A stretch of DNA of 64,000 nt from Salinicola socius (GTDB taxonomy: Bacteria; Pseudomonadota; Gammaproteobacteria; Pseudomonadales; Halomonadaceae): contig NZ_MSDO01000007.1 of the NCBI RefSeq assembly GCF_001937195.1, positions 62,001 through 126,000 of the forward strand, written 5' to 3'. This document shows positions 7,220 through 64,000 of the stretch, piece after piece. Under the pieces are notes generated by a model that saw nothing but the letters and a program-made list of their open reading frames with translations, had not been told where the DNA came from and made no database searches. The translations under genes were made by a program, and so were the position numbers. Position 1 is the stretch's first letter. Every line of letters starts with the position of its first letter.

Positions 7220-7434
7220 TTCTTCAGATCCTACTAAGCTCTGTCTGAAAAATCGGCGAGCGATGGCAAGACCGGGGCGCGTAGCTAAGGCAAAAATTGA
7301 CGAAAAAAGGACCGGGCTGGCGCTCCAGTTTACGAGGTGTAAATGAGCATTTTGATCGGGCTGGCGCACCAGTCAATTTTTAACGCCGTATGGGCGAGCG
7401 CAGGCATTTTTCAGACAGAGCGTAGGATCAAGAA
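7220..7434 (-). repeat. Structured dispersed repeat, copy A (long hairpin form)
   Basis: Largest of three related elements. The outer stem has three blocks: TTCTT/AAGAA, GATCCTAC/GTAGGATC and a perfect 16-bp arm at 7238-7253 with 7406-7421, about 29 paired bases with only two small bulges. Inside are AAAAATTGAC/GTCAATTTTT (7292-7301 with 7372-7381) and, on the minus strand, the conserved core TCAAAATGCTCATTTAC with its TTTAC/GTAAA hairpin. Only this copy has two 19-nt direct repeats (7310-7328 and 7354-7372, 17 of 19 identical), each holding a CTGG/CCAG mini-hairpin on either side of the core. It lies in the roughly 740-base gap between the pao and ABC-importer operons, where no credible gene is seen. 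Confidence 0.85.
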
Positions 7435-22718: not shown

Positions 22719-23558
22719 ATGCCAGCCAGAGCCATCAGCCTCGAGCAACAGCAGCGCCTGATCGAGATTGTGCGCGATGCCGCCAGGACCGAGATCCTGC
22801 CGCGCTTTCGCAATCTCTCCGAGGACGCGATCCGTTCGAAGAGCGCGCCGGACGATCTGGTGACCGACGCCGACCAGGGCGCAGAGCGGATGATGACGGC
22901 GGCGATCCGCGAGCTAATGCCGGAGGCGACGGTGATCGGCGAGGAAGCGGTGGCCGACGGCAGCGCCAATCTCGACGACATCGCCGGCGCCGAGCTGGCG
23001 CTGATCATCGACCCGGTCGATGGCACCTGGAACTTCGCCCGCGGGCTCAATCAGTTCGGGGTGATTCTGGCGGCGACCAGCTTCGGCGAGACGATCTTCG
23101 GCCTGCTCTACGATCCGCTGGCGGACGACTGGATCGTCGCCCGTCACGGCGAAGGCGCCTGGTTCGGCCGCCCCGATGGCACCCAGCGCCAGCTGCAGGT
23201 GTCGGCCACCGACAAGTTCGACGAGATGGTCGGTTCCACCTCGATCCGGCTGTTCGCCAAGCCGCAGCAGTACCAGCTGGCGGCGACCTTCCCCGACTTC
23301 CAGCGCATGATGGCGTTCGGCTGCGCCTGCCACGAATATCGCACCATGGCGTTCGGCTTCGTCGACTTCATGCTCACCGGCAAGCTGATGCCGTGGGATC
23401 ATGCCGCGGGGCTGATGATCCACGCCGAAGCCGGCGGCCATTCGGCGCTGCTGGACGGCACACCCTACCAGCCGACGATCCACCAGGGCACGGTGCTGGC
23501 CGCCAGCTCGCGGGCGCACTGGGAGCAGCTGCGCGAGAAGTTCAGCTTTCTGGGCTAA
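22719..23558 (+). CDS. Inositol monophosphatase family protein
   Basis: Magnesium-dependent phosphatase of the inositol monophosphatase/CysQ superfamily, 279 residues. Metal-site motifs are GEEAV near residue 69, DPVDGTWNF near 92 and WDHAAG near 225. The sequence is not close enough to SuhB or CysQ motifs to name one; candidates are inositol-phosphate, histidinol-phosphate or PAP phosphatase. An AAGAGAGGAG ribosome site precedes the ATG. Its stop codon lies at the edge of a structured repeat, followed by a strong terminator. Confidence 0.88.
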   Translation: MPARAISLEQQQRLIEIVRDAARTEILPRFRNLSEDAIRSKSAPDDLVTDADQGAERMMTAAIRELMPEATVIGEEAVADGSANLDDIAGAELALIIDPVDGTWNFARGLNQFGVILAATSFGETIFGLLYDPLADDWIVARHGEGAWFGRPDGTQRQLQVSATDKFDEMVGSTSIRLFAKPQQYQLAATFPDFQRMMAFGCACHEYRTMAFGFVDFMLTGKLMPWDHAAGLMIHAEAGGHSALLDGTPYQPTIHQGTVLAASSRAHWEQLREKFSFLG

Positions 23559-23689
23559 AAAGTGCCTGCGCTCGCCCATGCGGCGTTAAAAATTGGTTCA
23601 AAATGCTCATTTACACCCCGTAAACTCCGCGTTTTCGCCAATTTTTGCCTTGCCTGGCCTTCGCTCGTCGACTTTTTACGCAGGGCACT
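23557..23689 (+). repeat. Structured dispersed repeat, copy B
   Basis: Copy in the conserved-core orientation, beginning inside the upstream stop codon. Nested pairings are AAAAAGT/ACTTTTT (23557-23563 with 23671-23677) or, alternatively, AGTGCCTGCG with CGCAGGGCACT (23561-23570 with 23679-23689); AAAAATTGG/CCAATTTTT (23588-23596 with 23638-23646); and TTTAC/GTAAA (23610-23614 with 23620-23624) around ACCCC. It shares TGCCTGCGCTCGCCCAT and GGCGTTAAAAATTG with copy A, and the core TCAAAATGCTCATT with both other copies. Confidence 0.85.
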
Positions 23690-63181: not shown

Positions 63182-63192
63182 ATTGAGCTCCC

Positions 63193-63311
63193 GAAACTAG
63201 CTGCGTCGCCGGATACGGCGTTAAACACGCCCTCAAAATGCTCATTCATAACCCATGAACTCCGCTTTCTTGGTCGTGTTTGCCTTGTCCCAACTTCCTC
63301 GCTGACGTTTC
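63193..63311 (+). repeat. Structured dispersed repeat, copy C
   Basis: Copy lying between phnJ and the body of phnI, its core strand antisense to the phn genes. Stems: outer GAAAC/GTTTC (63193-63197 with 63307-63311) plus AGC/GCT, middle AAACACG/CGTGTTT (63223-63229 with 63275-63281), inner TTCAT/ATGAA (63245-63249 with 63255-63259) around AACCC. It shares ATACGGCGTTAAA, TCAAAATGCTCATT, AACTCCGC and TTTGCCTTG with the other copies, while both middle and inner stems have changed on both sides. Confidence 0.85.
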
Positions 63312-64000
63312 TTCCTCCGTGGAAGGTCGATCCAGCGATTCGCCCAGCTCAGGTGAAGAATTTCGAGCATGTTCGCGGCGCAGGCGCCGGAGCAGATCGA
63401 GCTCGGACTGGAAGTCGACGTAGTGCGGCAGCTTCAGATGCGAGACGAAGCCGGCGGCGTCGACGCTGTCGGCGTGGGCCAGCACGAACTCCGCCTGCTG
63501 CGCCGGGCCGATGATCGGCTCGCCCAGCTCCTCGGCGCGCAGCGCACGATCGACCAGCGCCATGGCCATGGTCTTGCGCTCGTTGTGGCCGAAGGCGAGG
63601 CCGTAACCCCGGGTGAACTGCGGTGCGGCCTCGCGCGAGCCGCCGAACTGGTTGATCATCTGGCACTCGCTCAGCGCGATCTCGCCGACGCAGATCGTCT
63701 CGTCCCACTCGGCGACGTGGATCTCCACTTCCACCTGGCCCAGGCGGATCTCGCCGGCAAACGGGTGATTGCGCCCGTAGCCGCGTTGGGTCGAGTACCC
63801 CAGCGCCAGCAGGTAGCCCTCGTCGCCTCGGGCCAGCATCTGCAGTCGGGCGGCGCGGTCCATCGGGTAATCCGGCGGATCGCGGGTGATGTCCGCAGGC
63901 TCACTGCCGTCGTCGATCTCCTGCTCCACCAGCCCTTCGTCGTTGAGCAGCGCCAGAATCTGTGGGCACGCCTCGGCGTCGGTGACGTCGTCCCGGGTCT
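63246..64000 (-). CDS. phnI: C-P lyase core subunit PhnI (partial, N-terminus off the right edge)
   Basis: C-terminal two-thirds of PhnI, about 250 residues visible, from TRDDVTDAEACPQILALLNDEG onward. RGDEGYLLALGYSTQRGYGRNHPFAGEIR and HLKLPHYVDFQSELDLLRRLR are recognisable PhnI regions. PhnI is a nucleosidase that, with PhnG/H/L, builds the ribosyl phosphonate triphosphate. The family normally ends near the RRLRR segment; here roughly 35-40 extra residues (ARNSSPELGESLDRPS to the stop) are added, the last part coded by repeat copy C. Whether the tail is tolerated or functional is unknown. Confidence 0.93.
   Translation of the reverse strand, partial: TRDDVTDAEACPQILALLNDEGLVEQEIDDGSEPADITRDPPDYPMDRAARLQMLARGDEGYLLALGYSTQRGYGRNHPFAGEIRLGQVEVEIHVAEWDETICVGEIALSECQMINQFGGSREAAPQFTRGYGLAFGHNERKTMAMALVDRALRAEELGEPIIGPAQQAEFVLAHADSVDAAGFVSHLKLPHYVDFQSELDLLRRLRREHARNSSPELGESLDRPSTEEETSARKLGQGKHDQESGVHGL

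Follow-up and report, generated by a model that had tools for sequence, protein, structure and literature searches.

What kind of element is a repeat whose copies differ in the sequence of their nested stems and still pair in every case, and where is this pairing maintained? The question is raised by a 64,000-nucleotide stretch of the Salinicola socius genome (hereafter the window), in which a first-pass annotation had picked out three dispersed repeats. A covariance-model search of the window recovered exactly these three. Their middle and inner stems do have differing sequences, with pairing verified in each copy, and the outer stem is indeed unlike between copies, copy 1 having complete AGCTCTGTCTGAAAAAT ends and copies 2 and 3 being without intact ends (Table 1).

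Anatomy of the element

The element is a nested palindrome of about 140-190 bp. Read on the TCAAAATGCTCATT strand, its left half consists of TA, an end of ~17 bp, an outer arm, GGCGTT, a variable middle stem and TCAAAATGCTCATTTAC; after a loop of ~5 nt, the right half follows with GTAAACTCCGCTTTTTC, a variable middle stem, GCCTTG, an outer arm, the end and TA. The core is TCAAAATGCTCATTTAC-N5-GTAAACTCCGCTTTTTC. Without modules, the end-to-end length is 139 bp for copies with type A ends and 141 bp for those with type B ends, to which up to three optional hairpin-like modules are added at fixed places (e.g., TGGTGCGCCAGCCCGG); copies from Pseudomonas and Halomonas carry the same kind of module. 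In copy 1, the module at 7311-7328 pushes the right half of the core away, and the 16-nt module TCGGGCTGGCGCACCA is one that is gained or lost among orthologous copies of sister genomes. The orthologues L308 and L248 differ only in the 16-bp module TGGTGCGCCAGCCCGG, which is precisely included in one and missing from the other, with a microhomology of only 1 bp.

Pairwise identity among 36 model-found copies reaches 84-94% for the core, GGCGTT and GCCTTG, a core value biased upward because the covariance model that picked the copies favours the core, and falls to 54-55% for the middle stems and 43-44% for the outer arms. Copies of 139-215 bp have no coding capacity for a transposase, and none of the near-intact or single ends inspected carries one. 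Single ends proved to be decayed copies or a second MITE sharing the tip. A second Salinicola repeat (L344, L347, L348 and L352) has the type B tip AGAGGGTGTTTACAAA in common with the element and an unrelated interior (TTTGCCATCCCTGGCAAAGGACC...).

Table 1. Location of the three copies in the window, of their parts, and of two Correia-core loci.
Feature	Position	Strand	Covariance-model match (E)
Copy 1, complete, flanked by TA on either side (7235-7236 and 7423-7424; target C-TA-G), with three optional modules	7235..7424	-	7239-7414 (8e-15)
Copy 1, terminal inverted repeat, type A (AGCTCTGTCTGAAAAATC); equals the ends of the IS5-family IS L408	7237..7254	-	
Copy 1, second terminal inverted repeat, type A (CATTTTTCAGACAGAGCG)	7405..7422	-	
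Copy 1, middle stem arm AAAAATTGAC (window + strand)	7292..7301	-	
Copy 1, opposite arm of middle stem, GTCAATTTTT	7372..7381	-	
Copy 1, conserved core hairpin TTTAC-gaggt-GTAAA, then TGAGCATTTTGA	7329..7355	-	
Copy 1, optional module (ACCGGGCTGGCGCTCCAG)	7311..7328	-	
Copy 1, optional 16-nt module (TCGGGCTGGCGCACCA)	7356..7371	-	
Copy 2, decayed ends, in a convergent gene pair	23555..23685	+	23555-23685 (8e-43)
Copy 2, core TCAAAATGCTCATTTAC-ACCCC-GTAAACTCCGCGTTTTC	23598..23636	+	
Copy 3, diverged, without intact ends	63191..63319	+	63191-63319 (1e-30)
Copy 3, core; inner stem compensated (TTCAT/ATGAA)	63233..63275	+	
Correia-core locus, L394	401-504		
Correia-core locus, L395	330-450		

Copy number, gene context and spread

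The first-pass annotation had made the case for a family depend on further copies in the genome, and these exist in number: the Salinicola socius genome holds 62 copies (covariance model, E<=0.01), and other Salinicola genomes hold 6 to 86 each, with up to 89 candidates scored per genome. The core pattern matched the Salinicola socius genome 23 times, against 2 for the reversed control, an excess well above chance, and all 23 matches were true copies. The midpoint of the copy lies between genes in 59 of 60 cases, and 17 of these 59 occupy convergent gaps, which bears out the earlier remark that copies sit at or just past gene ends; orientation relative to transcription is random (19:14). In the window, copy 2 directly adjoins an inositol monophosphatase gene (22719-23558) at its stop codon, copy 3 is located in the phnI-phnJ gap of the phn (C-P lyase) operon, where the predicted 3' end of phnI overlaps it, and copy 1 was inserted at the second TA of a natural palindrome, GATCCTACTAGGATC, which it split (7228-7236 with 7425-7430).

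The core is retained across Pseudomonadota, Desulfobacterota, Desulfuromonadota and Bacteroidota, in many cases with tens to more than 100 copies per genome, under arms that diverge and pair anew, and at least one copy was present in 111 of the 274 sampled genomes of the class. Among the matches listed, the exact core occurs in Gammaproteobacteria (including Nitrosomonadales), Zetaproteobacteria, Desulfobacterales and Desulfuromusa, as well as in the Bacteroidota groups Alistipes, other Rikenellaceae, Bacteroidaceae, Lentimicrobiaceae and Cryomorphaceae. Because these lineages carry from 9 to at least 150 copies per genome, each lineage with arms of its own, stray contamination is unlikely. 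The element is found on few plasmids. A phage origin was considered and rejected, given no match in a phage collection of 50,697 records and only 5 viral contigs with the element among 2.9 million.

Insertion, target duplication and decay

The mobility of the element can be followed among sister genomes. In G008, one locus is present as the empty site CCCGCCCG-CTAG-TGTAACGGG, while at the same locus in G000, G002 and G004 a copy sits between CTA and TAG, those of G000 and G002 being identical save for the 16-bp module. G006 has a separate, oppositely oriented copy at another CTAG, 12 bp from the G008-type empty site, and in G011 the G006 copy is reduced by deletion to 46 bp, with the junction GGCGAGCG, a repeat found in both arms. 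As judged from these alignments, two independent insertions have occurred 12 bp apart among sister genomes, and at the level of sequence comparison insertion, target duplication, decay in place and deletion are demonstrated. The element is thus shown to shrink to remnants of ~46 bp; in the case examined, the deletion ran between the GGCGAGCG repeats of the two arms.

The target depends on the type of end. Copies of type A are flanked by TA in 26 of 29 cases on the left and 23 of 29 on the right, with YTAR/CTAG as target and duplication of TA. Of 8 copies of type B (AGAGGGTGTTTACAAA ends), 7 have TNA at both flanks, and in 5 of the 8 the two are identical; this type is inserted at TNA with 3-bp direct repeats.

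Terminal repeats and candidate transposases

A search with PF13340 led to IS5-family elements whose ends match those of the repeat. The IS L408 (Salinicola G001), of ~921 bp from TA to TA and with two frames (orfA/orfB, PF13340 and PF01609), has the ends TACGCTTTGTCTGAAAAA...TTTTTCAGACAGAGCGTA, which are those of type A; L409 (Halomonadaceae G021) has TAGGCTTTGTACGAAAAGT, the type D end of the copy L055 from Halomonas sp. PA16-9; and the decayed L414 of Salinicola tamaricis (PF01609) has TAAGAGGGTTTTTACAAA...TTTGTAAACATTCTCTTA, those of type B. The terminal ~16-18 bp of the element therefore equal IS5-family terminal repeats, with a different IS for each end type, and the similarity between IS and MITE stops after about 18 bp (L408, L409). 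In both L408 and L409 the transposase frame terminates inside the right repeat, which means that this repeat belongs to the IS. The A, B and D ends each match an IS5-family element of their own; end types that differ in target rule thus go with different IS, the core remaining constant. An IS5 element from Azotobacter (L423) has the near-identical end CTA-GGGTTTGTCTGAAAAGTCG and is flanked by CTA and TAG. With no coding capacity, IS-matching terminal repeats and target duplication at a defined site, the element has the characteristics of a MITE.

The draft genome from which the window comes has no PF13340 gene, and we therefore infer its partner IS from congeners. A PF01609 search of 18 genomes of other, non-Halomonadaceae lineages found no IS with ends matching the local copies: several copy-rich genomes had no PF01609 match at all, and where there was one, its ends differed from those of the copies. 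No paired 16-bp ends ~1-2.5 kb apart were seen in the complete genomes G005 and G013 with one mismatch allowed; the decayed L414 was overlooked by the paired-end search owing to the greater number of mismatches in its right end. A BLAST search for recurrent neighbours at 236 loci linked no transposase to the element. In Halomonadaceae G022, a type D IS5-family element (L411, TAGGTTCTGTACGAAAAGTC ends) is present, yet there is no detectable copy of the palindrome.

Other enzymes were considered as movers. Dispersed intergenic hairpins in high copy recall the REPs and REPINs moved by Y1 (HUH) transposases of the RAYT type, but most Salinicola carriers lack such an enzyme (Y1_Tnp is absent from G000-G011, G013, G014, G016 and G017, some of them complete genomes that hold ~70-86 copies), and insertion at TA or TNA, with terminal repeats and target duplication, is DDE-like; mobilisation of this kind is already contradicted in Salinicola and is extremely improbable overall. 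An IS630/Tc1-type transposase would account for the observed duplication of TA at CTAG, which IS630 is reported to produce. It is nevertheless a highly improbable mover, since DDE_3 (PF13358) was not found in G000 and in nearly all Salinicola, the matching ends sit on IS5-family elements instead, and type B targets TNA.

Covariation of the stems and its origin

The first-pass annotation had read the paired changes as the mark of selection on a fold, of RNA or of single-stranded DNA. That the fold is kept through paired changes was confirmed in an alignment of 66 diverged copies, built from sequence alone and compared to controls with slid pairing partners: 94.2% of the cells were paired (33-50% with slid partners), 316 cells had double changes (40-58) and the covariation score was 0.460 (<=0.086). 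The covariation is overwhelming and the conserved fold is real. What found no support is the reading of these changes as selection on an RNA or single-stranded DNA at work in the loci themselves. Resident decay, scored in 15 copies with an identity of 96% or more to the type A consensus, comprised 23 single-arm changes against 1 compensated pair, stem and unpaired sites changing at about equal rates, and one-sided wobble cells (23 GU and 41 AC of 1910 in the diverged set) are fewer than expected for a structured RNA. Because resident arms change singly, wobble is rare and orientation is random, complementarity appears to be maintained in the lineage that moves, without being preserved once a copy is resident; compensation was confined to comparisons between lineages of the element that diverged long ago. 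On the other hand, in 93 of 100 copies the fold of the minus strand is more stable than that of the plus strand, and there are more AC than GU mismatches, so that a single-strand role is possible, and the life cycle of the element may include a single-strand or RNA step.

Could the fold be that of a structured RNA, a small RNA or 3'-UTR element spreading as a mobile gene and selected in the host? The strength of the covariation, the greater stability of the minus strand, the optional hairpin modules at fixed places and an invariant, asymmetric core, which on the minus strand contains a tandem-GA-like internal loop (G(G)AG/UGA), speak in its favour. We consider it improbable, given the absence of strand bias relative to neighbouring transcription, the failure of resident copies to maintain the fold, and wobble pairs at 1-2% of cells on either strand. 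Rfam also gave no support, the covariance-model scan of the window returning 0 matches at gathering score and nothing relevant up to E 1 at a relaxed threshold. A purely mutational origin, in which replication template switching between the arms would perfect imperfect palindromes with no selection, invokes an established mechanism for quasi-palindromes and predicts, as one arm copies the other, the large excess of double changes over one-sided wobble found between lineages. But it would erase the fixed asymmetric parts (the GTT bulge, TGCTCA against CTCCGC), which survive across phyla, and one-arm changes persist in resident copies; this origin is conceivable and rather doubtful. More generally, covariation within a mobile palindrome does not by itself prove a functional RNA.

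Relation to known repeats

The element resembles IS5-family MITEs in that it shares its terminal repeats and its TA or TNA target rule with resident IS5-family elements, and in being intergenic, in high copy and without a transposase of its own. Ordinary MITEs have the ends of one IS in common and are restricted to close relatives, whereas here the interior is the most conserved part and crosses phyla, and the ends are lineage-specific, matching different IS.

ERIC and Correia (NEMIS) have been classed in reviews as MITEs with TA ends (PMC2229807, PMC10969869). ERIC is likewise a long intergenic hairpin with TA ends, and its apex TCA-CTTAC-N4-GTAAG-CTCC resembles TCA-TTTAC-N5-GTAAA-CTCC of the element; outside the apex there is no alignment. 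The best match of the core model at an E. coli ERIC locus was this apex, at 13.6 bits and a non-significant E of 0.37, and blastn on E. coli genomes found no match to the element. The Correia repeat of Neisseria shares the TA ends and the palindrome, and has a central core common to Cupriavidus and Paraburkholderia; its ends and core sequence differ from ours. The core model gave only 11-12.5 bits for Correia and its Cupriavidus relative, and membership in the Correia family was rejected on account of the different ends and the mere 11 bits for Correia itself. Homology with ERIC or Correia is suggestive only, a lead and not a membership, and we know of no settled cognate enzyme for either. The Correia core GCCGCAGACAGTACAAATAGTACGGCAAGGC was also observed at 10 places in one megaplasmid record of Cupriavidus metallidurans and in Paraburkholderia; the arms of the Cupriavidus copy inspected are quite different (AGAGGCGCTATCAAAATGA...TCATTTTGATAGCGCCTCT).

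Compared by description only, R178/R30 of P. fluorescens (PMC2718517) and Ppu-9/Pae-1 (PMC2267715) are short Pseudomonas hairpin repeats that resemble the element in length and number, and the R178, Ppu-9 and Pae-1 families may include local members of the element. A search of the open-access literature with the core sequence found no match and no relevant paper. The earlier remark that the repeat is not recognised as a named family thus stands as far as we searched; its kind is a known one, a MITE with IS5-family ends, and it is the arrangement of a fixed core with exchangeable IS5 ends in several phyla that appears to be new.

Proposed mechanism and implications

Taken together, the element is very probably a non-autonomous palindromic MITE moved in trans by IS5-family transposases. 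The transposases would bind the matching ends and move the element by cut-and-paste, and only in the still-moving lineage would the arms stay complementary and the core nearly constant. A plain MITE requires its ends alone, and so IS5 mobilisation by itself does not account for the near-invariant core and the covarying inner stems. The role of the core is the least certain part of the proposal. We favour foldback pairing of the ends during transposition, and the most likely reason for its conservation is that the core nucleates foldback DNA (cruciform or hairpin), which would keep both short ends close to each other for the transposase. One core could then be moved by whichever IS5-family enzyme currently matches the tips.

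More tentatively, and as a possibility that we rate as somewhat unlikely, the element may be a bacterial counterpart of the CORE-SINEs: an ancient parasitic foldback with a functional core of fixed sequence, which would have reached at least four phyla by adapting its tips to the IS5-family transposase available and would form a superfamily with ERIC and Correia, whose cores, too, would be conserved under arms that vary. If the mechanism proposed above is right, much of the intergenic repeat DNA of Proteobacteria and Bacteroidota would be a single mobile family, of which probably only pieces have been described, one species at a time. The element would invert the usual picture of MITEs, in which the ends are constant and the interior is free. 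The role of the fixed palindromic core in transposition and the switching of ends between transposases could be tested now, and it would have to be asked whether ERIC and Correia operate likewise.
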